Notes under the pieces: generated by a model | The model's input: the letters and a program-made list of their open reading frames with translations, nothing else | Told to the model about the DNA's origin: nothing | Database searches by the model: none | Part shown: piece after piece, positions 10-16,627 of the stretch | Layout of the letters: each line of letters starts with the position of its first letter | How positions within the stretch are numbered: position 1 is the first letter of the stretch | Program-made: the position numbers and the translations under genes | IMG/VR virus record: IMGVR_UViG_3300042886_001175 | Location: 1 to 41,711 of that record | DNA: 41,711 bases | Direction: 5' to 3' (one strand) | Source of the DNA: a virus

Positions 10-99
10 GGAGAGGTGGTCGAGTGGTCTATGGCACCTGATTCGAAATCAGACGTAGTGTAACAGCTACCGTGGGTTCAAATCCCACCCTCTCCGCCA
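10..99 (+). tRNA. tRNA-Ser (anticodon CGA)
   Basis: The acceptor arm GGAGAGG (10-16) pairs with CCTCTCC (89-95), followed by discriminator G96 and an encoded CCA (97-99). The anticodon loop is TTCGAAA inside the stem CTGA/TCAG, giving anticodon CGA, which reads UCG serine codons. A long variable arm (class II tRNA) and the T-stem GTGGG/CCCAC around TTCAAAT are visible. The gene is intact. An integrase gene starts about 120 bp downstream in the same direction, the usual arrangement for a phage integrated in the 3' end of a tRNA. Confidence 0.96.
60..99 (+). other. probable prophage attachment site (tRNA-Ser 3' end)
   Basis: The 3' half of the tRNA-Ser gene (variable arm, T arm, acceptor strand and CCA) is the likely core of the attachment site, because the integrase lies immediately downstream and phage genes fill the rest of the window. 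This is inference: the second copy of the core should lie beyond the right edge, and I see no repeat of this segment elsewhere in the window. Confidence 0.5.
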
Positions 100-191: not shown

Positions 192-216
192 ACACTTGAC
201 ACGGCGACCGGGTCCG

Positions 217-1542
217 ATGACCCGAAAACGTAAACGCAGCAGTGTCGTGGAGATCGGAACCGGTCCCGCGAGAGTCAAGATCTACACCGTCAATCGCAAG
301 GACGGCTACTCGATGTTCTCCCTCTATTGGAAGGAAGGTGGCCAGAGAAAGGTTCGCCACCTCGCCTGCATGGAGGAAGCCCGCCTGATCGCCCAGCAAA
401 CCACAGTCAGATTGACGAACGGGTGGAGCGCCAGTGACGAGGTGACCAAACGTGAACTTGAGCTCCTTCGCCACTGCGAGCGGAAAGCCCAAGAATTTGG
501 CGTCAGCCTGACCGCTGCGATGGACGAGTGGGCCAGCGCCCGAAAAGCCGCCGGAGAAATCACTCTCTCCGATGCCGTCCGGTTCTACGCTGCGAATCGG
601 ATTGACCTGCTCGCCGTCCGAACCATCACCCAGACAGCCGACGAGTTCGTCGAATCCCGACGCGGCAGCGGGGTAAGCGACATTTATGTCCGGAACTGCA
701 AGGCTAGCCTGAAGCGGTTCACGGATCGCGTGAGTGGCAACATCACGGACGTGACAGTCGCCGACATCAATCGATTCCTCAAGGGGCTCAAAGGACTTGG
801 GCCTGTCAGCCGGAACGGGATCCGCCGCAATATCGTCACCATGTTCGGATTTGCCAAACGCAACGGCTACCTTCACCCCGACCGGAAGACCGCTGCGGAG
901 CAAAGCGAGTCGTTCAAGCAGGAAGAGACTGAGATTGAAATCTTCACTCCAGAGGAAATGGAACGGCTGCTTTTAGCGGCTCACGCCCGGATACTCCCCC
1001 TCATGGCCATCGGGGCGTTCGCAGGAATTCGGTCGGCTGAAATCCACCGCCTCGATTGGGAGGACATCAAGTGGGATCGCGGCCACATCGAGATCGCTGG
1101 CAAGAAAGCAAAGACAGCAGCGCGGCGGCTCGTCCCCCTCCCGGAAAACCTGAAAGCTTGGCTCGCCCCCTGGCGCGGCGAGACCGGGAAAATCATCTCC
1201 ATCACCGACTACGCCGGCGCTCTGAGCGATACTGCCGTAAAGGCCAAGATTCCCGGCGGATGGCGTCAGAATGCCCTCAGACACTCGTTCATCAGCTATC
1301 GGGTAGCGGAGACCGGCGACGTGGCTCGGACCTCTCTGGAGGCTGGCAACTCCCCGAAAATGATCTTCCGTCACTACCGGGAGATCGTGGATGCGGAAGC
1401 CGCAAAGGCGTGGTTTTCAATCCGGCCGCCTGACGGGTGGGTGCCTCCGGAACTCAAATGGTCAATCAAGCAGCGATTGGAGCGCTTGTCCTGTCGTCAG
1501 GACAGTCCATGCGTTGACACAGCCAACGATGCGCAACCATGA
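217..1542 (+). CDS. tyrosine-type phage integrase
   Basis: Site-specific recombinase expected to integrate and excise the prophage at the adjacent tRNA-Ser. The N-terminal part (to about residue 110) looks like an arm-binding region, residues about 120-235 like the SAM-like core-binding domain, and the rest is the catalytic domain: box I Arg272 (AGIRSAEIHRLDW), box II N352-A-L-R355, then GNSPKMIF and the nucleophile Tyr387 (RHYRE). The usual H of HxxR and of GHS are both Asn here. I chose ATG 217 rather than the in-frame TTG 196: that TTG belongs to a TTGACA hexamer lying 15 nt before ATG 217, the same arrangement as at many other starts in this window. The gene ends in an ATGA overlap with the next. 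Confidence 0.93.
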   Translation: MTRKRKRSSVVEIGTGPARVKIYTVNRKDGYSMFSLYWKEGGQRKVRHLACMEEARLIAQQTTVRLTNGWSASDEVTKRELELLRHCERKAQEFGVSLTAAMDEWASARKAAGEITLSDAVRFYAANRIDLLAVRTITQTADEFVESRRGSGVSDIYVRNCKASLKRFTDRVSGNITDVTVADINRFLKGLKGLGPVSRNGIRRNIVTMFGFAKRNGYLHPDRKTAAEQSESFKQEETEIEIFTPEEMERLLLAAHARILPLMAIGAFAGIRSAEIHRLDWEDIKWDRGHIEIAGKKAKTAARRLVPLPENLKAWLAPWRGETGKIISITDYAGALSDTAVKAKIPGGWRQNALRHSFISYRVAETGDVARTSLEAGNSPKMIFRHYREIVDAEAAKAWFSIRPPDGWVPPELKWSIKQRLERLSCRQDSPCVDTANDAQP

Positions 1543-1808
1543 AAGCCACAATCCTCAAACATCCCGCCCGGACCTCCAACACAAGCCAACCGCTCGAAGG
1601 AGGTGGAAGCTCGGGCTTCATTCAGCCAACCCTGATCAAGAAGAAGGAACTCGCGAAGCGCCTGTCGGTGAGCACTCGATCCATCGATACCTGGGTCGCC
1701 AAAAGAGTGATCCCCTACATCCAGATCACCCCGCGCTTCTACCTGTTTGAGTTCGAGGCCGTGCTAGTGGCCTTGAAAAAGAACTATCAGGTGGAGACCC
1801 GATCCTGA
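1539..1808 (+). CDS. small helix-turn-helix protein, excisionase/AlpA-like
   Basis: An 89-residue protein whose start codon overlaps the integrase stop (ATGA), so the two are translationally coupled. Residues about 33-75 (KKELAKRLSVSTRSIDTWVA followed by IPYIQI and FYLFEFEAV) match the pattern of MerR/AlpA-type DNA-binding domains: recognise DNA with a winged helix, here typically an excisionase or regulator of the integrase. The N-terminal 30 residues are low complexity. Position directly behind the integrase and before a terminator supports a role in excision control. It could instead be a transcription regulator of lysogeny; no target site is identified. Confidence 0.75.
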   Translation: MKATILKHPARTSNTSQPLEGGGSSGFIQPTLIKKKELAKRLSVSTRSIDTWVAKRVIPYIQITPRFYLFEFEAVLVALKKNYQVETRS

Positions 1809-1818
1809 TTCCTGAATA

Positions 1819-1857
1819 CAAAAAACCCCGGACGGTGCGAACCATCCGGGGTTTTTC
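1819..1857 (+). terminator. rho-independent terminator after the integrase operon
   Basis: The arms AAAACCCCGGACGGT and ACCATCCGGGGTTTT form a long stem with one internal C/A mismatch and the loop GCGA, followed by T residues. The A-rich left arm lets it work on both strands. It lies 10 bp after the stop codon of the small HTH gene. Confidence 0.92.
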
Positions 1858-2031
1858 ATGAACTAATCTTGCCCAAGCGGTCTGGATATCTACATCAGCG
1901 GCTCACGAATTTGACCCTCAAAACCTGCAACGGCGTCAGCCACACAGCTGTTTCGTCGCGTTTTTCTTCTCTGCTTACTGCTCACTCGTTACTTTTCACC
2001 TCTTCCGCCCCCTTTCCCCCGCAACCCCCTT

Positions 2032-2075
2032 TTCCCCGCCCTCCGGTCCGGTCCAATGGCTCTTTCAGGGGCCTC
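2032..2075 (+). repeat. 44-bp direct repeat, left copy
   Basis: Begins TTCCCCGCCCTCCGGTCCGG and ends CTCTTTCAGGGGCCTC. It matches 6781-6824 in 41 of 44 positions by hand alignment. The two copies bracket the large exported protein and suggest that the segment between them was inserted or duplicated into the prophage. Confidence 0.85.
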
Positions 2076-2148
2076 CCGCAGAAAGCAAACTCCTAGCAGC
2101 CAAATTCCTATCAGCCAGGTATTTTGTCGTATTTGAGGCCTTATAGCT

Positions 2149-2269
2149 GGCGGCGAATCAAGGGGATGCACAAGGCAACGGCAGCTTCCGCGATCCCGCT
2201 GATCTGATCGCCACCGCCACGGTGGATGAACTCTTCCCGATCTTGAGGGCGAATGACGCAAACGGCTGA
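2149..2269 (+). pseudogene. possible 3' remnant of an unidentified gene
   Basis: The frame ending TGA at 2269 reads through about 40 codons without a stop and has protein-like composition, including segments GNGSFRDPADLIA and VDELFPILRANDANG before the stop. No start codon or upstream continuation is seen; an in-frame TAG lies just upstream. I do not recognise the family. It may be the tail of a gene lost when the adjacent cargo was inserted, or chance. Confidence 0.25.
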
Positions 2270-2395
2270 GTCGCCCTGCGCTATCGAGCGGCGTCACAAG
2301 ACACCCATCGGCGCTTGGAACCCCGGATTGGGACGCATGTAACGCATGCGCATCCGGTTCTCGTATCCACTTGATAGACCACACGCCGAAAGCTG

Positions 2396-2416
2396 TTGCC
2401 AAATAATTCTTGGCAA
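2396..2416 (+). promoter_or_regulatory. 7-bp inverted repeat before the large exported protein
   Basis: TTGCCAA (2396-2402) and TTGGCAA (2410-2416) form a perfect inverted repeat with a 7-nt AT-rich spacer, 22 bp before the chosen start codon at 2439. It resembles an operator half-site pair; which protein binds is unknown. Confidence 0.4.
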
Positions 2417-2438
2417 AGCACTACCGGCACATAGGGTC

Positions 2439-5400
2439 ATGAGCATGGAATTCATCACCATGACCATCCCTGACGGTAGCAGGCTTGTCCCGAGCATCTG
2501 GCTCCGCAGAATCAGCGGGCTGGGCATTCGATGCATACTGGGAACGATAGCCATGCTATGCGCCACGCTCGCGGAAGCGGTGACTCTGGAACCTGAATCC
2601 ATCGGCGGCCTGCCCGGTTACAATAGCAGCCGGGTGCTGGGGATCTCTCCTGACGGCTCGGCGGTCATTTGCTACGCATTCAACAACGGCTTGAGTTTCA
2701 GAATCAATAACCAGTCGTCTGGCATGTACGGCACGGATGTAGTGTCACTGGAGGGAGATTTATTTCGTTGGACACCAGAAACCGGCCCCCAGCCCATGAA
2801 TTGCCCGCATCGGACGGGGAAATATCACTTCAGGTTGTCAGGCGTATCGGATGGAGGGGGAGTGGTGATCGGATACTACGACGATGGGACCGGGCACGAT
2901 CATGGGTTCCGGTGGTCGGAGCTGACGGGGTGGCAGGAGTTCCTGCAGCCCAACGGGCTGCCTGTGTTACCAAAGGCTGTTTCACGGGATGGAGCGTTCG
3001 TTTTCGGACAAATGGTTACTGCGGTAACAGCTGATGGTCACTACGAATTCGAGGCATTCAGATGGACCCCTGCTGGAGGCTTTGAGAGGATCGGAAACCC
3101 TGGTTTATCACCCAGAGAAGGGCAATGGATGGTGACGACACCGGACGGCTCCGCAATGGCCATGTCTTCCGGAAATGGGCCGTTTCTCTGGAAACCAGCC
3201 GGAGGTTTTCAAAGTCTGGGCAGCGTGCCTAACTTCTCTCACTATGAACCAAGACACATCTCGGTGGACGGAATGACGATCGCAGGTTATGTATCCCATT
3301 TGGGATCCATGCCCACAAAACACGCAGCATGGGTGTGGCGGGCAGGGATTGGAATGGAAATCGTGCCATTGCTTCCCAATTCATCGTTAGGCGTCATCCC
3401 AACGAGTGTGGGGATGGCCCCGGATGGATCTAGCATTTCCGGCATAGGGGTTGAAGTAGTCGAATCTTCAGCGCTCCAACACTACTTCCGGTGGACCCCC
3501 GCCGGTGGGACTCAAAATATTCCAGGCGCCATCGCTGGTTCGTCCTGGTTCTCCGAAGATGGTTCGACAGGGTTGAAACAGATAGCACCAGCAGTGCCTG
3601 ATCCTATTTTCAATTACGAATCAGGCTACCAATATGCGCTGCTTCGGGTGGGTGAGCCCGAGCAGCTACTGCAATTTCCAGTTCTTCTCGAACCGACGAG
3701 GGACTTTTGGGCGAGCATCTCAGCCGATGGTGCCGCCGTGGCCGGCAGTGCTTTTATTCTCGACACTGTCGATGATCCTTATTCTGCGAATAACTACACA
3801 ACGCTGTATGAAAACGCTTACCGCTGGCTCTCTGTATCGGGATTTGTAGTCAAAGACACGAGCCGCACTGGCACGCCAGCTGGTGGCATTCCCGGCGTGA
3901 CCGTGCGGTTAGTCGTGGGATCCGAGGTGTTTTCCACGAAAACAACGGATCATCTGGGAAGGGTGAACTTTGCCCAGGCGGAGGTGGATTTAGACAGGGT
4001 TTACAATGTGGAGTTGGAGCTCAATGGCGTGGTGAGGACCTACCAAAACATCCGGCCTTCCACGCTCATCAGTGGCGAGGGATCCCTCGTCTTGCCACTG
4101 AATTTGCGCCGACTCTTCGCTGCGGAGCTGACGAAGTTGGAGACCACTGGCACTCTGGTTCTGCCCTATAACACGACTTCGGCGAGATCCTTGCTCCAAG
4201 AATGGAATTCACCCCTGGCCACGCCGGGGGAAACACTTGCGCTGCGGGACAAATCCTTGGCCCGACTGCTGACGGCGGCAGAGGGCATGAATATCCTCTA
4301 CGGTTCTGCGGAGGCCTTGTCGCTGGATTCGGGAAAACTGATCGCCAATACATTGGTCGGGCTCCTTTCAGTTCAAAAAGCGATGAGCGAGTTGAACCAA
4401 CAGATCAACGGTGAACTCGCGGCTTTGGCAGCAGGCGGAGAGCTGCTGGAGCAGGCGGCGGCGACAGCAGGAGCTTATGTCGCTGCAGGGGGTAAGATCG
4501 CGGTGGACCGCCTGCGCTTGAGCTTTGTCGAATCCACTAAAAAGACCCTACCACCGTGGGGCACTGCGCTGGTGGATGTCGCCACGGGAACCGTGCTCGG
4601 AGGATTTTTCGACGCGATTGCAGAAGGGAAATGGAACCGGGCTGCCGGCAATGCCGGAGGACGCAAAGCGCTGCTAGAGGGGCTGGCGGAAAATCTGGGT
4701 GAGCAACTCGGAGGCCCGGTCTTCGCTTCCGCCTATGTCTCAGCGACGGATGATGATCTGGCCACCGCCGTGACACTGGCCCACTCCCTTGATTCCAGCG
4801 TCACTCCGGTCGCAGGATTTATCGCCTCAACCACACGCGCTAATGAAGCTCATGAGAGAAACTTATTAGCCCTGGACGCATCCGTGCTGCTTGCGGATAC
4901 GACCAAAAAATTCGGATATGTCGCAGACCTTGCATCCGTCGTTGGAAAAGCCCCGGGTGCTCAGCTCGCAGAAATGTTCTCTGTCACGATCAAGGGAATG
5001 AACGTCGCGATTACGGCGGGAACGGCCGCCAAAGACCTCTCGTTGCTCTACCAGACGGGTTTCAACGATGTGCCCGCGGTGGTGGATTTGGCATTTCACC
5101 CGCCAGCCGCGCAGCCCTCTCCTCTGGCATCTCCCACGCAAGCAGCTCCGTCGATATCCGGGGCACCGATATTTGCCGCCAAACTTGCTGGAAACTCATC
5201 ATCGGCCTTCGCCCCGCCGACCGCTTACAGCCAGCTTCTCAGCGGCTTGCGGGGCGCGCTCGTCTCAGCCGATCATGCGATGATTTTATCCGCGGCTACG
5301 AGCCTGATCGATGAAGATGAAGGGTTTCAAGACTCGATGGAGGCCGCCGTGATGAAAATCCGTGCCTTAGCACGTGCGGCCAACCCGCCGCGTCCGGTTT

Positions 5401-6698
5401 TGGATTCCGCCTTCGCCAGTCTGGCGAAGGCTTCGGATGAGGTCCATTTCGCCCAGACCCTATTGTATGCTTCCGTCGCAGGAGTGCTGGTTCCTCAGAT
5501 TGCCGATCCCGACATGACCCTCACCATGGTGATTTCCAAAGTCGATGCGCTCGCCCAGGCCCTTGCCGATTTTGATGCCGCTCTCGCCGCCGCAGGGATC
5601 GAGTCCAGTGATGTGACATCGCCTGCGTTGGTTATGGTTTCCGAGATCGGCCTTCAAAATGCCCCTCTTGCGCAGCTGACCTCGCCGGGACCGATCACCA
5701 TCGTGGGCAAACTGGTGAATATCGGATCGGTTGCAGCCGGAAACGTGACGGTTGAGTTGATACCCGGAGCCTCTTCCGGGCCAATTCCCGCCTGCCAGTT
5801 GACTTCTACGGCGTCGCAGAGTCTGGGAACCATGGCCGCCGGCGAAGTGCGCACTGTGAGTTGGAACGCGGTAGCCACAGATGTATCCGCCTCCGGCTTT
5901 GGTTCAAGTGCGACCTACCGCGTGAATGTCTCCACCTCCAACGGTGAAGGCGAAGGCGCGGCTGGGGCCTTCGATGTCGTCGTATCGGCACCGTCCTTCG
6001 GTCAATGGATCGCAGGTCATCCCGCAGCCGATGCGGCGTCCGAATTCGACGATGATGCGGATGGCGACGGTGTCCTTAACGGACTGGAGCGCTACCTGGG
6101 ACGCGATCCCGTGATCCCGGATGAGCAGGGCTTTGCATTCCTCCCGGGCACCGGGGCGCGTCCATTTTCCCACCCCCGTTCATCCATGGCCGGTTCCGAC
6201 GCGGATGCCAGCTATCAGTGGTCGGCAGATCTTCGCTCATGGCATGATTCCGGAGTGGAGGCAGGTGGCCTCCGAGTTAGTCTTACTCCTAGGGTCGTGG
6301 CTGGAAGTGGCGATGACCTAAAGACGGTCGTCGTCACCCCGGATGTGGTCGGCAACTCCAATTCGCTGTTCTATCGACTGAAGCTGCGGCTCAAGCCGCC
6401 GCTGGAGCCAGAGCCCGTGCCAGTGCAGACCCAGATCATTTCCGACCCTCAAGGAGCTTCGCTGAACAAAGGTGATTCCGTGACATTCACCGTGGTTGCC
6501 ACCGGTTCGCTCCCCCTTCTATATCAATGGCGGAAAAATGGCGCGTTGATTCAGGACGCCAACGGGCCCAGCCTCACTCTGAAACATCTAACCCGTGCCG
6601 ACAACGGAACCTACGATGTGCGGGTGGTTGGCGCGGGTGGCAGCGTAATTAGTTCCGGTGCTGCCCTCTCGGTGGGAGGTGGCGTGGTTAGCTTCTAA
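2439..6698 (+). CDS. very large exported protein: HAF repeats, regulatory-like domain, CARDB-like and Ig-like domains
   Basis: About 1,419 residues. A basic, hydrophobic segment (about residues 21-47, ending ATLAEA) is a signal peptide. Residues about 55-470 carry repeats of the HAF type (SPDGSAVI, FRWTPAGGF, SADGAAVAG), likely a beta-propeller. Then follow a carboxypeptidase-regulatory-like beta domain (about 477-545), a long Ala-rich helical region, a CARDB-like beta domain (about 1065-1185), an acidic DDDADGDGVLNGLE calcium-binding-type segment near 1204 and a C-terminal Ig-like domain (about 1330-1417, with YQWRKNG). These are features of secreted verrucomicrobial surface proteins, not of virions. 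An upstream in-frame ATG at 2346 would put the signal peptide 50 residues inside; ATGs at 2439, 2445 and 2460 are better. It lies between direct repeats, opposite in strand to the late genes, so it is probably lysogenic cargo. Function unknown; adhesion or substrate binding is plausible. Confidence 0.8.
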   Translation: MSMEFITMTIPDGSRLVPSIWLRRISGLGIRCILGTIAMLCATLAEAVTLEPESIGGLPGYNSSRVLGISPDGSAVICYAFNNGLSFRINNQSSGMYGTDVVSLEGDLFRWTPETGPQPMNCPHRTGKYHFRLSGVSDGGGVVIGYYDDGTGHDHGFRWSELTGWQEFLQPNGLPVLPKAVSRDGAFVFGQMVTAVTADGHYEFEAFRWTPAGGFERIGNPGLSPREGQWMVTTPDGSAMAMSSGNGPFLWKPAGGFQSLGSVPNFSHYEPRHISVDGMTIAGYVSHLGSMPTKHAAWVWRAGIGMEIVPLLPNSSLGVIPTSVGMAPDGSSISGIGVEVVESSALQHYFRWTPAGGTQNIPGAIAGSSWFSEDGSTGLKQIAPAVPDPIFNYESGYQYALLRVGEPEQLLQFPVLLEPTRDFWASISADGAAVAGSAFILDTVDDPYSANNYTTLYENAYRWLSVSGFVVKDTSRTGTPAGGIPGVTVRLVVGSEVFSTKTTDHLGRVNFAQAEVDLDRVYNVELELNGVVRTYQNIRPSTLISGEGSLVLPLNLRRLFAAELTKLETTGTLVLPYNTTSARSLLQEWNSPLATPGETLALRDKSLARLLTAAEGMNILYGSAEALSLDSGKLIANTLVGLLSVQKAMSELNQQINGELAALAAGGELLEQAAATAGAYVAAGGKIAVDRLRLSFVESTKKTLPPWGTALVDVATGTVLGGFFDAIAEGKWNRAAGNAGGRKALLEGLAENLGEQLGGPVFASAYVSATDDDLATAVTLAHSLDSSVTPVAGFIASTTRANEAHERNLLALDASVLLADTTKKFGYVADLASVVGKAPGAQLAEMFSVTIKGMNVAITAGTAAKDLSLLYQTGFNDVPAVVDLAFHPPAAQPSPLASPTQAAPSISGAPIFAAKLAGNSSSAFAPPTAYSQLLSGLRGALVSADHAMILSAATSLIDEDEGFQDSMEAAVMKIRALARAANPPRPVLDSAFASLAKASDEVHFAQTLLYASVAGVLVPQIADPDMTLTMVISKVDALAQALADFDAALAAAGIESSDVTSPALVMVSEIGLQNAPLAQLTSPGPITIVGKLVNIGSVAAGNVTVELIPGASSGPIPACQLTSTASQSLGTMAAGEVRTVSWNAVATDVSASGFGSSATYRVNVSTSNGEGEGAAGAFDVVVSAPSFGQWIAGHPAADAASEFDDDADGDGVLNGLERYLGRDPVIPDEQGFAFLPGTGARPFSHPRSSMAGSDADASYQWSADLRSWHDSGVEAGGLRVSLTPRVVAGSGDDLKTVVVTPDVVGNSNSLFYRLKLRLKPPLEPEPVPVQTQIISDPQGASLNKGDSVTFTVVATGSLPLLYQWRKNGALIQDANGPSLTLKHLTRADNGTYDVRVVGAGGSVISSGAALSVGGGVVSF

Positions 6699-6780
6699 GA
6701 TGCGCCTCTTGCGTTTCTATCAGAAACAACCGGACTTGGTCAACATTAGCGGCGATTACCGTCAAATTCCCACCTCCTTA

Positions 6781-6824
6781 TTCCCCGCCCTCCGGTCCGC
6801 CCCAATGGCTCTTTCAGAGGCCTC
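6781..6824 (+). repeat. 44-bp direct repeat, right copy
   Basis: Second copy of the repeat at 2032-2075 with three mismatches. It sits between the stop codon of the large exported protein and the stop of the convergent holin-like gene, 32 bp away. GAGGCCTC inside it is a perfect 8-bp palindrome. Confidence 0.85.
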
Positions 6825-6855
6825 TTGTGAATCTCCCGCAATGGCACCGTGCCGG

Positions 6856-7047
6856 TCAGGCCTTGAAGCTTTGGTTGGGCTGGCCGTCGTCTAGCAAGTC
6901 GCCGATGCGATTCACAGCGTCCTTGAGGATCGAGGCGGCGGCGAATACGAGCACACCGATCTTGGGATCGACGAATGGAATCGATCCAAGAGCGGTAACG
7001 AACCCGGCGACCTTCCCGGCGAAGCTGAGGTATTTGAGTGCTTTCAT
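6856..7047 (-). CDS. small holin-like membrane protein
   Basis: 63 residues starting at ATG 7047. Two hydrophobic stretches (about residues 8-24 and 28-42) precede the charged C-terminus LLDDGQPNQSFKA. The C-terminal 12-residue motif is nearly identical (10 of 12) to LFDDGKPNQSFK inside the larger protein encoded at 36446-36823, so the two are paralogs. Size, topology and position as the last gene of the late operon fit a holin or antiholin. Further upstream in-frame starts exist (to 7155) but would overlap the next gene and add an unlikely Arg-rich leader. Confidence 0.7.
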   Translation of the reverse strand: MKALKYLSFAGKVAGFVTALGSIPFVDPKIGVLVFAAASILKDAVNRIGDLLDDGQPNQSFKA

Positions 7048-7064
7048 GGTGAACCGGGGTGATG

Positions 7065-7259
7065 TCACCTCCCCCGCATTTTCTTCACCATGCTGACGAG
7101 CGACATGATGCCCACGAGCAGGCCGACGCCGAGTGAGGCCACTCGCAGGTGCCATTCGAGCTGCTCTTGATAGGACGTGATGACTCCGACCATCGGCGAG
7201 GCGATGCCGACGAAGGCTTTCATGACAAAGTCGAGGTCGATGTTGATCGGTGCGCGCAT
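7065..7259 (-). CDS. small membrane protein, holin candidate
   Basis: 64 residues with hydrophobic segments at about 12-28 (FVMKAFVGIASPMVGVIT) and 40-57 (VASLGVGLLVGIMSLVSMV) and a basic C-terminus KKMRGR, a class II holin-like layout. It would form lesions in the inner membrane to release the endolysin. It lies in the late operon 17 bp before the other holin-like gene and follows a structural gene. Assignment is by topology only; a tail-associated membrane protein is an alternative. Confidence 0.65.
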   Translation of the reverse strand: MRAPINIDLDFVMKAFVGIASPMVGVITSYQEQLEWHLRVASLGVGLLVGIMSLVSMVKKMRGR

Positions 7260-7290
7260 GGTTGGGAGCTAGATAGGTTGAGATCGGCTG

Positions 7291-7644
7291 TTACGGCTCG
7301 GCTTCGATTTCAGGCTCGGGCGGCGTTACGTGGACAAAAACTGCGCCATCAAACTCGATGTCAGAGCGGCCTTGCTCGGTCGGTGCGCGGTGCGGGAACT
7401 GCGGCAGATTGAGAGCGTCGAGTGATGAGTTGACTGCACCTGCCAGAGCGGAGTTGGCTTGGAAGGTGGCGAGCGTGGCAGGCACGTCGGCGTTCAACAC
7501 GGCGAGCAGACGGTCGGTTGGGAATGACCAGAACCGCTCGTTGGTGGTGGCGAGCACGCTGGCAAGGTGGTGCGTAGCTTCGGCGACTTGCAGGATCAGT
7601 GCGTCTTTGACGTCGAGGTCGGTGGTTTGGCGGATGAGTTGCAT
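7291..7644 (-). CDS. hypothetical phage protein downstream of the tail fibre
   Basis: 117 residues, no signal peptide or membrane segment. The N-terminal half is helical (LDVKDALILQVAEATHHLASVL), and residues about 30-95 have several hydrophobic helices; the C-terminus is acidic and Pro-rich (VTPPEPEIEAEP). It starts 4 bp after the stop of the tail-fibre gene, so it is surely co-expressed. The position suggests a fibre assembly chaperone or a tail accessory protein, but no family is recognised. Confidence 0.65.
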   Translation of the reverse strand: MQLIRQTTDLDVKDALILQVAEATHHLASVLATTNERFWSFPTDRLLAVLNADVPATLATFQANSALAGAVNSSLDALNLPQFPHRAPTEQGRSDIEFDGAVFVHVTPPEPEIEAEP

Positions 7645-7648
7645 GGGA

Positions 7649-9472
7649 TTAGTTGTCGATGTGATAATGCAGTTTGTGGAATCTTACGGTTCCGGCGTTT
7701 TGGGCAGCTGTGGCAGAAGTGGCGAGACCTGTCAGAAATATGGAACCCGGTGCGGGGTCGTAATTCGCAGCAGCCAAGGTCAACTGAGCAGTGGCTGGGC
7801 GGTTTGGGAATGTCGTAAAGCTCGGTGTGCCGACTACCCGTAATTCAACCGCGCCTGCGGCAGTGATTTTCAGCCACATCGCGATGAATTTTCCCGATGA
7901 TCCCAATGAAAAGGCAGGCGAAAAGCTCGCGGTTTCAGAAACGGAAGTTTTCCGAATCAGTCTCAACTTCGTGAATCCGCCCTCGTTGAAAACTTCAATC
8001 GCCAAACCGAAATTTCCAGACTGTTCTAATTGACCGTTTGGCAAGCCGCTACTGATGGCGATCTGATGCCGTGTGCCGGACAAACTATTCACCTGCATCT
8101 CAAAAAGCATGAACATCTCACATCCGCGAGCGTAATTCCAACGATTGCCCGCTTCCTTGAAAATTGAATCCGACAGCTTGTAGTTGTAGAAACTATTTTG
8201 TGATGAACCTGTTGCTTCAGGTGCCGTAATTTCCAAGGTGTAATTGTTCGTGACAAGAGCGTATCCCGCTGTAGCCGATTCGGAATAATACTGAGCGAGA
8301 GGCCTTGTATCCAATTCGCCAACTTTTAGTGGGTTGAGGATGTTTTGATAATACCCATCAGCCTGAGTAATGAGGCTAGTGGAAGCGAGAATGGGTCCCG
8401 CGGATGAGGGGCGAATCGCAAAACTGTTCGATCCATTGTTTGTGGCAAGATTCGGGGCTGTCACGTTGCCCGTAAACGAGGCGTTGCCATTATTGGCGAC
8501 TACGAACTTGCCGATACCTACATTCAAATGCGGCCCTATGAGGCTTGAGATTGCTGCGCCTGTGCCGCTGTAGCTGGAGATGATTGCGCCTGTGCCGGTA
8601 GAGCTTTGTACTAAAGCGCCTGCGCCGCTGCTGCTGGTGATGAATGCGCCGACGCCGCTGCCGCCGCTGGTGCTGATGCTTGCTCCAGTGCCGGTGCCGG
8701 TGGCGCTGATGCTTAATGCGGTGGGATCACCATCAAAATCATTAGAGCCACCCGTGCTGATAATTGTTACGTTTTGACCACCGACACGCGGGTCAGTAAA
8801 AACACACCCACCTCCAAACGACACTCCGCCGCCCTGTGCATCACGCTGCACCAGCGTTTCTGGTGTGGCGGTCGTAGTTCCAGGGACGTGGATTGTGGGG
8901 ACTTTGCCATTGGCATCCAAGGGTGCGTAGCCATTTGCGATTCCTTTGTTGGCTATCATCTCAATGCCCTGAGGAGGAGGGTAAACGGGATTTGCATCGT
9001 CGGGCGCGCCCTCGGTGCCACGGTTCACATCGTTCTCCACGACCACGAGGAAGGTGCGGGTGGAGGTGTGTTCGCCCATTCCTTCCCGCCAAGTGATCTC
9101 ACCCATGAGCGTGATTTCCGAAAGCTCCTCGGAGGACTCCGATCCGACGTTGAGAGCCGAGTTGAGTTGCAGCGTGTTGAAGCTAAGGAAGCATTCGTAG
9201 GTCGGGGTGTCGTCGCCCTCGGATGGCATCGACCAGTCCACGCAGTGCGCGAGATAGGAGTGTTCGAACTGGTTGCGCGGCTTGATGCCGATCTGGATTT
9301 CCAATTCATCTGGATCGCCAATCGTGACCGGGGTTAGTCCGTTTTGAAGGAACACCACCTGAAGCCTGGCTGCATCGCCACGTTTGAAGCGTAAGGCGGC
9401 AACCGCGCTACGCTGGCCGGGTCCCTGGATGAGTTGGAGGGTCTCAAGATCGACGTGGAGGTTCACGCCCAT
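7649..9472 (-). CDS. tail fibre / receptor-binding protein candidate
   Basis: 607 residues. The N-terminal ~150 residues form a beta-rich domain (EITWREGMGEHTSTRTFLVV) that resembles baseplate-attachment domains of tail proteins. Around residues 165-190 is a linker with GYAPLDANGKVP, a motif common in phage fibres. Residues about 245-300 hold a run of short G-T-G-A-x-I-S-S type repeats, typical of beta-helical fibre shafts, followed by a C-terminal jelly-roll-like domain of about 200 residues. It should attach to the tail tip and contact the host. TTGACA lies 13 nt before an in-frame GTG at 9466 and 7 nt before ATG 9472, so the true start could be either. Confidence 0.75.
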   Translation of the reverse strand: MGVNLHVDLETLQLIQGPGQRSAVAALRFKRGDAARLQVVFLQNGLTPVTIGDPDELEIQIGIKPRNQFEHSYLAHCVDWSMPSEGDDTPTYECFLSFNTLQLNSALNVGSESSEELSEITLMGEITWREGMGEHTSTRTFLVVVENDVNRGTEGAPDDANPVYPPPQGIEMIANKGIANGYAPLDANGKVPTIHVPGTTTATPETLVQRDAQGGGVSFGGGCVFTDPRVGGQNVTIISTGGSNDFDGDPTALSISATGTGTGASISTSGGSGVGAFITSSSGAGALVQSSTGTGAIISSYSGTGAAISSLIGPHLNVGIGKFVVANNGNASFTGNVTAPNLATNNGSNSFAIRPSSAGPILASTSLITQADGYYQNILNPLKVGELDTRPLAQYYSESATAGYALVTNNYTLEITAPEATGSSQNSFYNYKLSDSIFKEAGNRWNYARGCEMFMLFEMQVNSLSGTRHQIAISSGLPNGQLEQSGNFGLAIEVFNEGGFTKLRLIRKTSVSETASFSPAFSLGSSGKFIAMWLKITAAGAVELRVVGTPSFTTFPNRPATAQLTLAAANYDPAPGSIFLTGLATSATAAQNAGTVRFHKLHYHIDN

Positions 9473-9490
9473 GCCTGCCTGTCAACCGGA

Positions 9491-9988
9491 TCACACTGCC
9501 GGCCATTTGCGCAGCGGGCAGCCCTGGGATCTGAAACGTGCCTTGGCATCGACGAAACAACCGCACTGGGCACATGTCCGGTTCGATCTCAGTTGGTCGC
9601 ATGATCCGCATGCCGCAAGCCGTGACACCACTTGAGGTGGGGTCAGGTTCGGTTGCCCTTGGACCACCGCTTTGGTTTCCGCGCGGATCGCCTTGACCAA
9701 ACTGCCAGCCCTTTTGATCAAGCCCGGTGAAGGCTGAGCGGGAGAGACTTTTGCTGGAGCATTACCAGCGGCAATCAGGTTGAGAGTGGCCTCGTATTGG
9801 GCATAGATCGCTTCGGCCCGTTTCCTGTATTTCGTCGTCTTCATCCGCGCCTTCCACTTTTCGGCAAGCTCATCTTTGTTGAGGTGGGACATTCCTCCCC
9901 GCCTCCGCATCACAGCCCGTTGATCGATGGATGGCTCTGCATCAATCTCCAGAGCGTAGAGAATCTTCGTTAGTTTTTCTTCGTGCAT
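9491..9988 (-). CDS. tail-region protein with C-terminal zinc-ribbon-like Cys cluster
   Basis: 165 residues from ATG 9988 (longer frames upstream overlap the preceding gene). The N-terminal part is helical and strongly basic (AEKWKARMKTTKYRKRAEAI). The C-terminal 40 residues contain CGSC, then CAQCGCF, then a later C before PLRKW, a four-cysteine-type cluster seen at the C-terminus of several phage tail-associated proteins and expected to bind zinc. It sits between the Cys-rich tail protein and the fibre. Function unknown; a structural or assembly role is likely. Confidence 0.7.
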   Translation of the reverse strand: MHEEKLTKILYALEIDAEPSIDQRAVMRRRGGMSHLNKDELAEKWKARMKTTKYRKRAEAIYAQYEATLNLIAAGNAPAKVSPAQPSPGLIKRAGSLVKAIRAETKAVVQGQPNLTPPQVVSRLAACGSCDQLRSNRTCAQCGCFVDAKARFRSQGCPLRKWPAV

Positions 9989-10005
9989 GGGCTTGAGTGG
10001 CTTTC

Positions 10006-11561
<1,556 letters not shown>

Positions 11562-11565
<4 letters not shown>

Positions 11566-11999
11566 GCCGTCGGTTTGCGGATGTTCTCATACAAGGGCAC
11601 CACCGGGCAGGTTCCATGAACGGCGTTCGGATACATTGGATCGATGACCGGCGCGGTGTCTGCCGGACGCGGGTATGGCTTCTTGCCCTGCCAGCGGTCG
11701 CCGCCGTAGCCGTAGCTCCCCTGGGTCTCCAGGCACGAGGGAGTCAGCACCGTCCAATCTTCGGCATAGAAATCCTCGACCACGAAGTCCGTGTTGCGGA
11801 TGACGCGAGTCACTTTGGCTCCGGTGCCCGATTGTCGATAAAGCAGCCAGAACAACGAGTTTTGATAGACGACCCACCGCAAAGCGCGGCCAGTGTCGCC
11901 GAACAACTCGATGTCATCCCATCCGGCACGACGAACCGCCCACCCGCGACGGGCGTATTCAGCGGCCAAAGGCCAGATCATGCCAGAGCCGTAGGTCAT
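11562..11999 (-). CDS. DUF2829/Tad2-like domain protein
   Basis: 145 residues. The N-terminal ~90 residues are clearly paralogous to those of the downstream 519-residue protein: GMIWPLAAEYARRGWAVRRA, then a beta-rich middle and VIRNTDF...FYAEDWTV. That overall pattern (A..l..G..V.R..W at the start, xDWxV at the end) is the one of the DUF2829 family, which includes Tad2, an inhibitor of the Thoeris defence system. The C-terminal 50 residues are Gly/Pro-rich. It is joined by 4-bp ATGA overlaps to both neighbours, inside the tail-tip region, so it could equally be a structural use of the fold. Ligand-binding residues were not checked. Confidence 0.65.
11920..11985 (-). repeat. 66-bp duplicated segment, copy in the short Tad2-like gene
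   Basis: Partner of 11486-11551; the mismatches cluster toward the middle of the second half. Confidence 0.8.
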
Positions 12000-12739
12000 G
12001 GGGTCGGAACGAGGTCGCGGTCGATGGCGACGCGGAAGGTTTTGGAAGAGCGGATGATTTCGTCAGACAGCGCACCCGGCTCCAGGTAGTCCACGCGCCA
12101 TTCGATTTCAGCGATGGCATCGAAGGTCGTCTGATAGTCTCCTTGATAGTTGCCAAGCGCGTTGAAGAGTTCCGGCGTATCGAGATCGACCAAGATCCGG
12201 TAGCGCGGTTGGTCGCTGGTGCCGATGATTTCCAGTCCGCCATTGCTCTGAAGTAACACCGTCTCGCCGTCAAACTCACGGATGTTCATGATGATCGATC
12301 CCATCGCCAGCGATTGCAATTCAGTCCCCTTGAGGAATCCGATGTCGAGAAACACCTTGTCGCCGTATTTGAGGAACATGACGGCTTGGCTGGCCTGTGA
12401 GGATGGCGTGATGCCTGGAACTGAAACCGCGCCGCTTCGCAGGTCGATGTTCACCTCGATGCCGACGCCATCATTGAAGTTGGTGTCTTCGATGCCCATG
12501 GCCACTTCCAAGGGCGCAGAAGGGCCGGTCGCATTCGTGGCGATGATCTTGATGAGATAGACGCCAGCGGCGGTTGCGGCCCCGCTCACGAGGCCCGCAT
12601 TGCTGATTGTCATGCCCGATGGCAGACCGCTTGCGCTCCAAGATGTCGGTGAGTTGGTTGCCTGCATCTGATACTCGAAATACTGCCCCTTGCGGTAGCC
12701 GAGGACGGAGGTGGTGTTGGAAATGACGGGAATGGCCAT
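11996..12739 (-). CDS. tail-tip protein with putative Ig (He_PIG) domain
   Basis: 247 residues. Residues about 15-80 follow the He_PIG pattern: YFEYQMQATNSPTSWSASG, LPSGMTISNAGLVSG, GVYLIKIIATN, a cadherin/Ig-like fold often found in surface and virion proteins. The rest is a beta-rich domain (MGIEDTNFNDGVGIEVNIDL and onward) ending in a helix-rich segment. It starts 9 bp after the stop of the large tail protein upstream and overlaps the Tad2-like gene by ATGA. A tail tip or fibre-attachment component is likely; no enzymatic motif is visible. Confidence 0.65.
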   Translation of the reverse strand: MAIPVISNTTSVLGYRKGQYFEYQMQATNSPTSWSASGLPSGMTISNAGLVSGAATAAGVYLIKIIATNATGPSAPLEVAMGIEDTNFNDGVGIEVNIDLRSGAVSVPGITPSSQASQAVMFLKYGDKVFLDIGFLKGTELQSLAMGSIIMNIREFDGETVLLQSNGGLEIIGTSDQPRYRILVDLDTPELFNALGNYQGDYQTTFDAIAEIEWRVDYLEPGALSDEIIRSSKTFRVAIDRDLVPTP

Positions 12740-12748
12740 GGTGATGTG

Positions 12749-15100
12749 TTATTGGATGGTTGCTTTGCCGAGACCTTCGGGTTCATCGCCGGTGAGGGTC
12801 GCCTTCAGCCCGTTGAACGCGACGAGTCCGCGTGGGTCGGTCTGGCGGTCGTCGGTGTCGAATCGCACAAGCCGCCCCCGGACGATGAAGTTGGCGGTGG
12901 TCATCGTGGTGGGAGTGGCTTCCGTGGCTCCATAGATCACGCGATCCACTACGCAGGTATCTACCAAGTCCACGAGCTTACGGACGATGCGCAGCCCAAA
13001 CCCGTGCGACGACGGGATGCTTGTGAGCATGAAGCTGTGATCGAGCGACGGCGGCAGGAACGTGACATCCGCGATGTTGCTGGGGTTGGCTGGGTTGCCA
13101 GACGGCAGGCCGATGTCGATGGCCACGCCCCAATGAACTGAGGTGTTCGAGTTGAACACAGCGGCGACAAACGAGAAGTCGAGTGACAGCCGCTTGCCAA
13201 GCCGCAGTTGCTTGCCGTTGACGTGAATCCGGAACAGCTCGCGGGAAAAGTCTGAGGGATAGAACACCTTCTCGCCCGCGATGACTTGCTCCACCTGATA
13301 AAATCCGCGCCCGTCCCAGGCGAAAAATCCCGGTGCGCTGAGCTTGGTCGAGCGGCGACCGAGATAGCCCGGGATCACCAGCGGCGCGGTCGTGTTGGTG
13401 TATTGATAGATGACGCCGGTCACAGGGGACGTCGGCAGGACGTTTGCCGTGGTGAAGGCGATCGGATCGACATACACGGCTGGCAGCAGGCCTCCGACTC
13501 GCGGAAGGTCGGCGGGTTTGATCGACGGCACGTCTTTTGCCTCGATCTTCTGGCGCGTCGGAAACACCTCGAAAAGCTCCGGCAATTCCCACGCGGCAAT
13601 CACGGTTTGCTCGTTTCCAGAGACACCAGGCAGAGAGGTCGGGATGAATGCTTCAAGGTCTTCGACCCGCCCGCCCAGGTCATCGAGGATCAATTGCAGC
13701 CCCTCAATTTGGGCAATCGTATGGCCGTGCGTCTGGAATGCCGAAACTGGGCCTGCGGTGGAAATGATGGCGACGTAGCCATTCACCGCAGGGGGTTCGG
13801 CAAACGTGATGCTCAGATCGTCCTCGCCATCGAGCGTGACGGCCAGCGGCTCGACGATGGCGCGGTTGCCGCCGTTCTGGCGCACGGTGACATGCAGGTC
13901 ACGGGTGCCGAGGTTGTGACTGATGGTGAACTCCGAGTTCACACCGTCTCCGATTGGTGCGACGTAGTGTTGCGAGCCGGTGATGATCTGGTCGGGCGTG
14001 AACGGCACATACGTCCTGCCGTAGGGTGGGCGCAGCCAATCGATGTTGGCAGCGGTTTCGAGTCCCTCCCAGTTGAGTTCACGAATCAACGAGATCGGGG
14101 CGCGGAAAGGAGTGAGTGTATAGATCTTCGCAGGATCGTTCTCATCTTGAATTGCGACTTCAATTTCCAACTCTGGCTTTAACTCTGCGGCACCGCGCAG
14201 TGCGGCGGCGATCTCGGCGGTGTTGAGATCGAGGATGATGGTCGGATCACCGGACGGTGCGGAAAACACGGCGACTTCGATCAACTCCTGATCAATGCCG
14301 GCCATTGAGCCGTTGAAGGTGATGTGGGCGATATTGGTCGCCGGGTTGCTGACAGAGAATGATCCCTCGTCGTCGGCGAGAACCGATAGCGCGTCCTGAA
14401 TTTCGTCGGGTCCGTCATCCACGGACAATTCGCGGGTCTTCTTGAACCCACGGCGTAACTGATAGGTGCCTTTGAAGGTCGGCTGGATCTTGAGTGCCTG
14501 GATCTCGGGCCAGAGCGTGGTGGCCGAAGCTCCGCCTGCTTGCACCTCGCTTACCGTTGGCGCGGGCGGCACGATCAATTCAAAGCTCGCAGTCGATGCG
14601 AGCGGTGCCTGCACAAGCCGGACCTCGTGGCGATATTGTCCGGCCACCTGCGTCGAGCGAACGCGCACGAACGAAACGGGCCGCAATTCGGAAAGCAGTC
14701 CAACGGCAGAGTGTCCGGACAGCGCGATTTCCTGTAGTCCGGTAGAAATGATCCACGAGCCATCCTGTTTGCCAACCACCGCGTCATCCAATCCGATGGC
14801 GGCAAGAGCGGTTTGCACAGCGCCTGCCGTGGCGTCGTGTGGGATCGACGCAGTGTTTTGATCGTCCACTCGCAGCACAAAAAAGCCAGTCGTCGGGCGG
14901 ACATCGACAAATCCAATGGACGCGCGGATATGCGTCACAATCCTCTGGACCTCGATGGGCGAACCTTCGAGCGATTCAGCGAAACGCAGGCCGATGCGCA
15001 CCTTGTCGCCCTGGACGAAGGCAGGGAACGAAATCGCGCTGCCGCCAAGCGTCGTGGTCAGCCTGCGAGTGGTGAGATTGGCGTAAACGGTGGCCTGCAT
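12749..15100 (-). CDS. large tail-tip protein
   Basis: 783 residues, beta-rich almost throughout, no signal peptide or membrane segment. Notable pieces are a segment near residues 380-470 with IISTAGPVSAFQTHGHTI, typical of phage fibre C-terminal/host-contact domains, and several repeated ~100-residue beta modules in the N-terminal half (VQTALAAIGLDDAVVGK, IQDALSVLADDEGSF: both of the form residues predicted to be beta-solenoid or Ig-like). Position after the FGE-fold protein and before the fibre genes suggests a central fibre or baseplate component. The start codon follows one copy of the direct repeat that flanks the FGE gene. A TTGACG lies 25 nt upstream, outside the usual distance for this window. 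Confidence 0.65.
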   Translation of the reverse strand: MQATVYANLTTRRLTTTLGGSAISFPAFVQGDKVRIGLRFAESLEGSPIEVQRIVTHIRASIGFVDVRPTTGFFVLRVDDQNTASIPHDATAGAVQTALAAIGLDDAVVGKQDGSWIISTGLQEIALSGHSAVGLLSELRPVSFVRVRSTQVAGQYRHEVRLVQAPLASTASFELIVPPAPTVSEVQAGGASATTLWPEIQALKIQPTFKGTYQLRRGFKKTRELSVDDGPDEIQDALSVLADDEGSFSVSNPATNIAHITFNGSMAGIDQELIEVAVFSAPSGDPTIILDLNTAEIAAALRGAAELKPELEIEVAIQDENDPAKIYTLTPFRAPISLIRELNWEGLETAANIDWLRPPYGRTYVPFTPDQIITGSQHYVAPIGDGVNSEFTISHNLGTRDLHVTVRQNGGNRAIVEPLAVTLDGEDDLSITFAEPPAVNGYVAIISTAGPVSAFQTHGHTIAQIEGLQLILDDLGGRVEDLEAFIPTSLPGVSGNEQTVIAAWELPELFEVFPTRQKIEAKDVPSIKPADLPRVGGLLPAVYVDPIAFTTANVLPTSPVTGVIYQYTNTTAPLVIPGYLGRRSTKLSAPGFFAWDGRGFYQVEQVIAGEKVFYPSDFSRELFRIHVNGKQLRLGKRLSLDFSFVAAVFNSNTSVHWGVAIDIGLPSGNPANPSNIADVTFLPPSLDHSFMLTSIPSSHGFGLRIVRKLVDLVDTCVVDRVIYGATEATPTTMTTANFIVRGRLVRFDTDDRQTDPRGLVAFNGLKATLTGDEPEGLGKATIQ

Positions 15101-15101
15101 G

Positions 15102-15123
15102 GGGATGTCCTGCCCATGCCCGC
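15102..15123 (-). repeat. 22-bp direct repeat flanking the FGE-fold gene, copy 1
   Basis: Plus-strand GGGATGTCCTGCCCATGCCC, continuing GC; matches 16440-16461 in 20 of 22 positions. It lies just before the start codon of the large tail-tip gene. Confidence 0.75.
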
Positions 15124-15255
15124 CGCGTCAACTCACGGGTCAGAAAAATGCACCCGCTTCGCTGCATTCGAAGACACTTCGCTCCCTTCACTGCGTTGCC
15201 TGCGTTCGTCCCTCACTTGGCCACTCCGTTCCGTTCGCTCCGCTGCTTGCTGGCT

Positions 15256-16332
15256 CTAGGGAACTGAACTGCGAGCAACACGGAAGCCGACGTTCTCGAA
15301 CGCGTAGGACGGGTTGACGTAGTTGCGGTCCGCGACGCGGCAGTAGCCGGCAACGTCGTCCCAGCCGCCGCCCCGGTACACCCGGCTCGAGCCCGAACTA
15401 ACACCCCGGGGATCCGTCGGTGACGCGGTGTCGTAGGTGCCATACCAATCCCAGCACCACTGCCAGACATTGCCCGCCATGTCGTTCAAGCCGTAGCCGT
15501 TCGCCGCGAATGAGCCCACCGGGGATGTATAGGGATAACCACCCGTGGCGTAGGTGGGGTGGAAGTTGTTCACCGCTCCGCTCAGGTCATAGCTGTAGCT
15601 GGAATACGCGTAATAATTTGCCTGGCTCTGGCTGATCGTGTCGCCCCACGGGAAACGCTTGCCGCTCAAGCCGCCGCGCGCGGCTTTTTCCCACTCCGCC
15701 TCAGTCGGCAGGCGGTAGCCGTTGGCGGTCCATTTCACCTGCGCGTTGGTCACATTCACATCCCCCGTCTTGTAAACCGTCGTCTGCGCGTCGTTGGTGT
15801 AATAAGCAGGCGTCAGCCCCTCCTTCTGGCTGCGGGCGTTGCACCACTTCACCATCTGGAACCACAAAATCCTCTGCACCGGATGATTGCTGGCCTTGCC
15901 CGCGCCGGCCTCGAGATCGCTGTAGCCGTTGCTGATGGCCCACGTCCGCACCGTGTCCCACTGCGCCTTGGTCACCAGATTCTGCGCCATGTAAAACGCG
16001 CTGACCGTCACCGTGTGGGTGGGGACCGCGGAATCACCATCCAGCGCATCGCCCATGGTGAAGACACCCGCCGGGATTAGCGCGAAGCCGGTGGGAGCGG
16101 CGGGGGCATCCAGCAGGCGCACTTTCATCCGATAAAACTCCTGCGAGCCGGGAGTCGGCACCAGGAGCTTGCCTGAGCCGCTGATCATCTCGGGTGTGAT
16201 CGTGACGCTTTCCCAAACATTGAGGGTTGAGGATTTTTCCAATTCCAATTCGCTGACACTCTGGGCAGTGAGCGGAGAGACGAGCGACGCAATCGCGAGC
16301 CACAGGGGCAGGGGGCAAAGTAGTGTTTTCAT
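15256..16332 (-). CDS. secreted FGE-sulfatase (C-type-lectin fold) protein, DGR-target-like
   Basis: 358 residues from ATG 16332, chosen because a signal peptide (KTLLCPLPLWLAIASLVSPL, cut near TAQ) follows directly; a GTG at 16374 would add 14 residues. A short beta segment ending FYRMKVRLLD leads into an FGE-sulfatase domain: FALIPAGVFTMGD, YRLPTEAEWEKAARGG, FPWGD, GLNDMAGNVWQWCWDW, YRGGGWDDVAGYCRVADRN and GFRVARSS. The catalytic Cys pair of true formylglycine-generating enzymes is absent (a single Cys in GYCRVADR), so it is probably a binding domain on the C-type-lectin fold. Its C-terminal 40 residues have the layout and NNC-codon bias of variable repeats of diversity-generating retroelements. 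The gene sits between tail genes and is bracketed by 22-bp direct repeats, so it is an insertion. Confidence 0.85.
   Translation of the reverse strand: MKTLLCPLPLWLAIASLVSPLTAQSVSELELEKSSTLNVWESVTITPEMISGSGKLLVPTPGSQEFYRMKVRLLDAPAAPTGFALIPAGVFTMGDALDGDSAVPTHTVTVSAFYMAQNLVTKAQWDTVRTWAISNGYSDLEAGAGKASNHPVQRILWFQMVKWCNARSQKEGLTPAYYTNDAQTTVYKTGDVNVTNAQVKWTANGYRLPTEAEWEKAARGGLSGKRFPWGDTISQSQANYYAYSSYSYDLSGAVNNFHPTYATGGYPYTSPVGSFAANGYGLNDMAGNVWQWCWDWYGTYDTASPTDPRGVSSGSSRVYRGGGWDDVAGYCRVADRNYVNPSYAFENVGFRVARSSVP
15259..15375 (-). other. variable-repeat-like 3' end of the FGE-fold gene
   Basis: From the RGGGW codons to the stop, the positions that vary in DGR display proteins carry codons such as GAC, GGC, TAC, GTC, TTC and AAC, all reachable from AAC by changing A only. 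The surrounding invariant codons (TGG, TGC CGC, CGC, CCG TCC, GGC TTC CGT) match the usual frame. No template repeat or reverse transcriptase is present in the window, so a working DGR is not shown. Confidence 0.4.
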
Positions 16333-16439
16333 CCAATAAAATAAAGGGTTCTTATGGAACTCGTTGAGAGTCACTCAGCACTGTCCGGGGACGTCAAGGC
16401 TTTCCCGGGCAAGAGCACAATTTTTACTGTCAGATTCTT

Positions 16440-16461
16440 GGGATGCCCTGCCCATGCCTGC
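16440..16461 (-). repeat. 22-bp direct repeat flanking the FGE-fold gene, copy 2
   Basis: Plus-strand GGGATGCCCTGCCCATGCCT, continuing GC. It directly follows (minus sense) the stop codon of the 53-residue gene, i.e. the original junction before the FGE-fold gene was inserted. Confidence 0.75.
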
Positions 16462-16465
16462 ATCC

Positions 16466-16627
16466 TCACAGCTCGAAAAACTCCGCGTCAAACCTCGCCA
16501 TGACGTAAGGAAACGGCGGTTCCAACCCGGCGGCTTGCTCAGCCTCCTCCTCTTCCTTGCCCAGGCGCTTTGCGAGAAGTCGCTGTGCCTTGTCGAGGCC
16601 GAAGCCGTCTTTTGGTTCCTCACTCAT
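16466..16627 (-). CDS. small acidic helical phage protein (53 aa)
   Basis: ATG 16627 overlaps the stop of the upstream gene (ATGA), the same coupling used by its neighbours. The product begins MSEEPKDGFGLDKAQRLLAK, continues with an acidic KEEEEAEQAAG helix and ends PYVMARFDAEFFEL. No family recognised. Overlap, codon usage and position in the tail operon argue that it is real. It is the last gene before the inserted FGE-fold gene. Confidence 0.7.
   Translation of the reverse strand: MSEEPKDGFGLDKAQRLLAKRLGKEEEEAEQAAGLEPPFPYVMARFDAEFFEL

Follow-up and report, generated by a model that had tools for sequence, protein, structure and literature searches.

We analysed a linear IMG/VR record of 41,711 bp, IMGVR_UViG_3300042886_001175 (the whole of which is hereafter the window), and focused on a very large gene, here called the cargo gene, that lies between the integrase end of a prophage and its late genes. 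The window opens with a tRNA-Ser (CGA; 10..99, + strand; ARAGORN), the presumed attachment target. Next come a tyrosine integrase (196..1542, +; Pfam Phage_integrase 3.4e-8, phrog_1 3.5e-27) and an 89-aa gene (1539..1808, +) that finds matches after the integrase in many relatives and that we call, as a presumption, xis-like. A terminator-like inverted repeat with 16-nt arms, 94% complementary, and then a T run occupies 1821..1856 (+), although it is absent from the list of a stricter scan. The cargo gene itself spans 2346..6698 (+), its frame starting 0.8 kb past the integrase, and so does lie next to the presumed attachment site, as a preliminary description of this DNA had stated. Beyond it stand two small phage genes conserved in relatives, h1 (63 aa; 6856..7047, -) and h2 (64 aa; 7065..7259, -), for neither of which Pfam gave a match. 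The phage genes farther right, mostly on the opposite strand to the cargo gene, include tail-type, tape measure, portal, protease, major head protein and terminase genes. We refer to the space bordered by the xis-like gene on the left and h1 on the right as the slot. Related loci differ in where their match to the window starts: in many it is near base 10 or near 67-83, in the 3' half of the tRNA, and in others later, near the integrase. One locus (L030) has, as read by eye, a different tRNA-Ser-like sequence at the place of the tRNA-Ser. The relatives of the integrase in bacterial genomes (54 loci) come mostly from metagenome-assembled genomes (MAGs) titled Akkermansiaceae, Verrucomicrobiaceae or related Verrucomicrobia, from which the host of this prophage is probably an Akkermansiaceae bacterium.

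The cargo gene is an intact frame of 4.3 kb with 1450 codons in the open reading frame (ORF) scan, or 1419 aa from the in-frame ATG at 2439. The 1,400-residue exported surface-type protein of the preliminary description is thus confirmed as a frame, with domains of host type and with export predicted by rule. From the ATG at 2445 its N terminus passes the rule of our own by which signal peptides were called throughout (2445..2579, +, presumed cleavage after AEA). There follows a HAF-type region of 7-8 repeats (2592..3830, +; limits by eye), recognised by the NCBIfam profile and motif counts. Like HAF repeat proteins (TIGR02913), the cargo protein has repeat motifs mostly about 40-55 residues apart; unlike them, it scores 20.6 bits (E 3.1e-4), slightly under the curated cut-off of 22.65. 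Two motifs, both picked after the protein had been read, exceed what was found in 2000 shuffles: a DG motif with 8 matches (7 separate places) versus a maximum of 5, and an F-R-W-type motif with 7 matches versus a maximum of 2. A weak SdrD_B-like start (only E 0.11) leads into a rare middle region (together 3840..5654, +), which is matched in 3/386 genomes of the order, strongly in two (G101 and G166) and with E 3.5e-5 over 67 residues in the third (G258). The C-terminal module (5892..6395, +), with a D-rich start and a YQWSADL...FYRL signature, is TSP3-like by eye only, and the protein ends in the predicted Ig-like domain (6435..6623, +; Pfam Ig_3, PF13927, 30.1 bits for a cut-off of 30), which also matches PDB Ig domains of phage tail proteins, and host proteins. 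Many large host proteins contain matches to parts of residues 1183-1350; for parts of the last two modules, matching large proteins occur in 10 of the 17 genomes or records tried. The one domain of the preliminary description that could not be confirmed is CARDB, for which the cargo protein has no Pfam match at E<=1. Single-sequence structure models of the N-terminal and middle parts were unusable (pLDDT 33 and 40).

The nearest homologue of the cargo protein was found in another Akkermansiaceae genome (G101, locus L099). This protein of 1312 aa is 33% identical to residues 490-1446 of the cargo protein (32% in the whole alignment), and it carries HAF repeats, the rare middle region and an Ig domain in the same order; it passes TIGR02913 with 87.2 bits and reaches 32.2 bits for Ig_3. 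Similar as the two are in build, the G101 copy differs in its setting: in the 20 kb around it we found no match to the integrase, the xis-like gene, h1, h2, a gene that we label h3, or a 607-aa tail protein, the other integrases of that genome lying elsewhere (26-42% identity). Across 260 genomes of the host family the strongest match to residues 75-1110 of the cargo protein is 34% identical. Pattern-based scans of viral and genome contigs and tblastn on phage records gave no relative of the cargo, and plasmids gave no relative of its DNA. Hosts that lack the prophage and yet have this gene in this position, an arrangement at odds with the preliminary description, were likewise not seen in these contig scans, in the phage tblastn or in the 260 family genomes.

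We then compared the slot across related loci (numbered with L). These were gathered by the integrase (20 viral and 54 genome loci) and by one tail protein, matched in 41 of the 260 host-family genomes, from which 20 stretches were fetched; L117 was added via a repeat described below. Of the 96 sequences examined (the window, L003-L076, L117 and L131-L150), 55 have an integrase together with h1 or h2, and merging the near-identical ones left 43 distinct slots, the window included; loci lacking h1/h2 or an integrase, among others L003, L027, L028, L139 and L145, are outside this count. With a gap of >400 bp taken as filled, 26/43 slots are empty and 17/43 are filled. L070, with a truncated integrase overlapping h2, was counted as empty, and L049 shows h1 only. 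Eleven of the 17 have their contents between the integrase/xis-like gene and whichever of h1 and h2 comes first in view (the window, L017, L029, L040, L044, L047, L048, L074, L075, L117 and L131), L047 being filled between h1 and h2 as well. From the xis-like gene to h1 the gap measures 5,054 bp in the window, and it measures 82-95 bp in loci that keep both genes and have this first gap empty (89-95 bp in L004/L005, L049, L052, L134, L138 and in L038 and L039, both filled further on). The distance is 94 bp from the xis match to h1 in L140, or 282 when measured from the integrase, and 209-275 bp from integrase to h1 in L136, L142 and L147, whose integrase is of another type and where no xis match is seen. 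In two very close relatives, L021 (96% identical DNA) and L023 (95%; integrase 98%), only 5 bases separate what corresponds to window positions 1859 and 7065, and h1 is absent. The cargo gene is therefore present or absent at a fixed site within one phage group, as morons are. Its status as prophage cargo, proposed in the preliminary description, stands: the slot lies near the integrase/tRNA end, related prophages have it empty or otherwise filled, and the homologue sits in a stretch without the genes of this phage family.

As in antiviral hotspots, different systems occupy this one locus in related phages. Large proteins with surface-type domains recur: a 1,555-aa protein with VWA in L040, a 993-aa protein with NHL and Ig-like domains in L074, a 562-aa protein with RCC1 in L075, and 679-aa and 610-aa (RCC1) proteins in the h1-h2 gap of L039. 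L047 holds several lipoproteins or signal-peptide proteins, and L029 a minus-strand ORF of 569-613 aa with weak matches to propeller-type families. Two slots carry recognised defence genes: the RmrTA pair in L017/L018 (L017 2154-4066; RmrA 2.7e-120, RmrT 3.8e-27) and, in the h1-h2 gap of L136 (3661-4419, -), a TIR-domain defence-like protein (Pfam TIR_2 2.3e-17; PADLOC PDC-S66 4.4e-64). With 2/17 filled slots of this kind, the contents are not mainly antiviral; PADLOC covered at least one protein in 16/17 filled slots, L047 being left out. Elsewhere we found RDD and Sel1 proteins (L131), a membrane-type protein (L142), a 286-aa ORF with a nuclease match below threshold (L147), a tail-type protein with Mtd_N (L048/L143), and small or unassigned genes (L038, L044, L064). 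Beside h2 in L139, a locus outside the 43 slots, lies a 627-aa ORF with cadherin domains. Also outside the count, the slot of a close relative (L003, 3428-8540) contains a protein of 518 aa that is exported by our rule, genes that look IS-like by eye and a PEP-CTERM protein; this locus has one copy of the dispersed repeat described below and no DNA equivalent to window positions 1860-18316.

Exported proteins by our rule are found in 5/17 filled slots (the window, L040, L047, L074 and L075), a count that rises to 6/17 with L029 from a shorter start and to 7/17 with L039, judged by eye; L142 passes the rule but was left out, having two further hydrophobic segments. We compared the slots, 40.4 kb as the sum of gaps, with 307 kb of host DNA from the far side of the integrases in 32 loci (leaving out L057, L062 and L066, which extend past the integrase). 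Exported ORFs of at least 500 aa number 4 in the slots versus 6 in the host-side DNA, with 0.8 expected (Poisson 0.009), or 3 versus 0.7 expected when the window is left out (Poisson 0.033). As a share of all ORFs of at least 500 aa, they make up 4/7 in slots versus 6/41 on the host side (Fisher 0.027), and 3/6 without the window (Fisher 0.075). With few and partly related cases, this excess of exported proteins is no more than suggestive. Both lying in one MAG, L074 and L075 have 91% identical DNA upstream and through the signal peptide; their mature proteins are different (NHL versus RCC1), and the DNA downstream is again 94% identical.

The cargo gene is flanked on both sides by copies of a dispersed Akkermansiaceae repeat of ~80 bp. 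The left copy lies at 2022..2101 (+), and the right copy (6771..6824, +), of 54 nt, is 87% identical to its first part (2022-2075); a possible broken frame between the left copy and the gene (about 2140-2270) has no convincing relative. The repeat occurs in 27/260 family genomes (32-base pattern, up to 2 mismatches), often clustered, and its copies keep a single orientation within every fetched stretch; one contig that was listed and not fetched (G168:C9) has two copies that lie 7.8 kb from each other and are oppositely oriented. In L117, a different integrase (34%) is followed by a repeat, a 271-aa gene unrelated to the cargo and without Pfam or PADLOC match, and another repeat, after which 93% identity with window DNA extends from 6774 to 8286, where the L117 stretch ends. 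L117 and L023, the close relative with an empty slot, come from one genome. The arrangement in L117 suggests that cargo can be exchanged by recombination between repeat copies. In general the repeat is not needed, since no copy of it is seen in the filled slots of L040, L074, L075 or L039. An integron gene cassette was considered and rejected: attC-type hairpins would be expected, yet the folding of the left repeat is unremarkable on both strands (z -0.07 and 0.82), and the genes between repeats run both ways. The repeat is also seen in L109, L112, L114 and further loci, mostly in one orientation within clusters. Mobilisation of the IS91/ISCR type was considered as well: in L027/L109 (two handles for one genome stretch), L028 and L119 a repeat is preceded, at a distance of ~170-220 bp, by a transposase that looks to be of this type, but the window cargo has none.

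On balance, we consider it fairly probable that the cargo gene is exported lysogenic-conversion cargo, held in an accessory-gene slot of the prophage and altering the outside of the lysogen. It would be an accessory, moron-type gene in a slot of variable content, bordered on one side by the integrase/xis-like genes and on the other by the late-gene block, and it would be transcribed apart from the late genes, presumably on its own in the lysogen, since it faces them (the two are convergent) and lies behind the terminator-like hairpin. The product would be a host-type surface protein with HAF repeats, the middle region and an Ig tail, made and exported by the lysogen; its surface effect would most likely be attachment, or hindering other phages. 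The gene probably came from a bacterial chromosome and may be exchangeable via the dispersed repeats on both sides. The virus may thus change the surface of its host bacterium, because the gene for a giant protein of exported type stands at a spot where relatives carry nothing, genes for other exported proteins or anti-virus genes. Of the surface conversion put forward in the preliminary description, the host-type exported cargo and the variability of the slot in relatives are borne out, and expression, secretion and receptor masking or adhesion are predictions.

Several findings weigh against this reading. A sigma-70-like promoter was looked for at the cargo gene and none was found, and the G101 homologue fails the signal-peptide rule. 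The second attachment site (attR) was found neither in the window nor in 60 kb of phage-side DNA of two relatives. In six of the 17 filled slots the contents lie only in the next gap, h1-h2 (L038, L039, L064, L136 with its TIR gene, L142 and L147). The slot is not reserved for surface proteins, because 8/17 filled slots (L038, L044, L048, L064, L117, L131, L142 and L147) contain neither exported nor recognised defence genes. Moreover, the excess of exported ORFs is weak, because L074 and L075 are not independent.

The main rival is that the gene is passive host DNA, a chromosomal segment that landed between dispersed host repeats and is useless to both phage and lysogen. We hold this to be unlikely, if still worth serious weight. 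The wide dispersal of the flanking repeat in family genomes fits it, and so does L003, which is a decaying prophage with its one repeat copy, IS-like, exported-by-rule and PEP-CTERM genes and loss of phage DNA. However, the 4.3-kb frame of the cargo gene is intact and phage genes continue on both sides of it, and proteins of exported type recur in relatives whose slots are free of the repeat (L040, L074 and L075; L039 by eye).

A narrower form of the lysogenic-conversion reading, in which the protein works in phage exclusion by receptor masking or surface blocking, is in our view doubtful. The two sibling slots with anti-phage genes (RmrTA and TIR) make it attractive without proving it, and known prophage hotspots beside integrases are rich in antiviral systems (Rousset et al. 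2022; PMC9122126). Against it, neither the window protein nor the surface-type proteins in L029, L039 (679 aa), L040, L074 and L075 have a PADLOC match, and the domains are those of general surface proteins. We would extend this only as a speculation, and a rather improbable one: that prophages of Akkermansiaceae and Verrucomicrobiaceae swap large exported proteins in one slot as interchangeable surface armour against rival phages, beside intracellular defence genes, the signal peptide shared by L074 and L075 being the case in point. If so, prophages of a bacterial group known here mainly through MAGs would remodel the surface of their hosts by trading entire multidomain exported proteins, and candidate factors of surface exclusion or adhesion could be gathered directly from this slot in the genomes of both families.

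That the cargo is instead a virion protein, an Ig-displaying tail or decoration protein, we judge very improbable. Its C-terminal Ig does resemble phage Ig-domain tail proteins (9ncf 5.2e-39, 9c2d 1e-23) and Hoc-like PHROGs, but a Hoc-like decoration protein would be cytoplasmic and encoded with the late genes, whereas this one has a signal peptide by rule and lies on the strand opposite to the late genes; moreover, it is absent or replaced in relatives, and its similarly built homologue has no genes of this phage family around it. Least credible is an ordinary chromosomal gene beyond the prophage border, which the missing attR might invite, since the cargo has the integrase on one side and the phage late block on the other, and these adjoin in 26/43 slots.

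Morons, or lysogenic-conversion genes, are extra genes in their own orientation that are dispensable for the phage. The cargo gene is like them in being extra, in its own orientation and, as judged by the empty slots, dispensable; it is unlike them in encoding a multidomain protein of 1.4 kilo-residues, in the promoter result given above and in a phenotype that is putative. Morons are also mentioned by Rousset et al. (2022; PMC9122126), who describe hotspots of antiviral systems in prophages and satellites (P4, P2, K139-like and Bacillus), several of them beside the integrase. As in those hotspots, the family of the window has variable genes at one fixed phage locus, with defence genes among the contents. 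Unlike them, it frequently has large exported host-type proteins and few recognised defence genes, its host group is probably Akkermansiaceae/Verrucomicrobiaceae, and in the window and L117 the cargo is flanked by repeats on both sides. The open-licence PMC literature searched gave no earlier account of this slot. The slot belongs to a known general kind; it stands apart by its type of cargo, often large exported proteins, by its group of hosts and by the layout with flanking repeats.

Other features of the window lie among the phage genes. A 511-aa protein (27205-28740, -) encoded among the structural genes consists largely of leucine-rich repeats of 23 residues (LSLNGLTSLSDAAAEALSRH...), visible as 69-nt repeats in the DNA. 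Two further genes match a kinase-annotated PHROG (15256-16374, -; 9.3e-39) and a NinI-like phosphatase (24265-25035, -; 2.4e-13), and a 90-nt direct repeat, 83% identical, is found in two adjacent genes (11484-11573 and 11918-12007).

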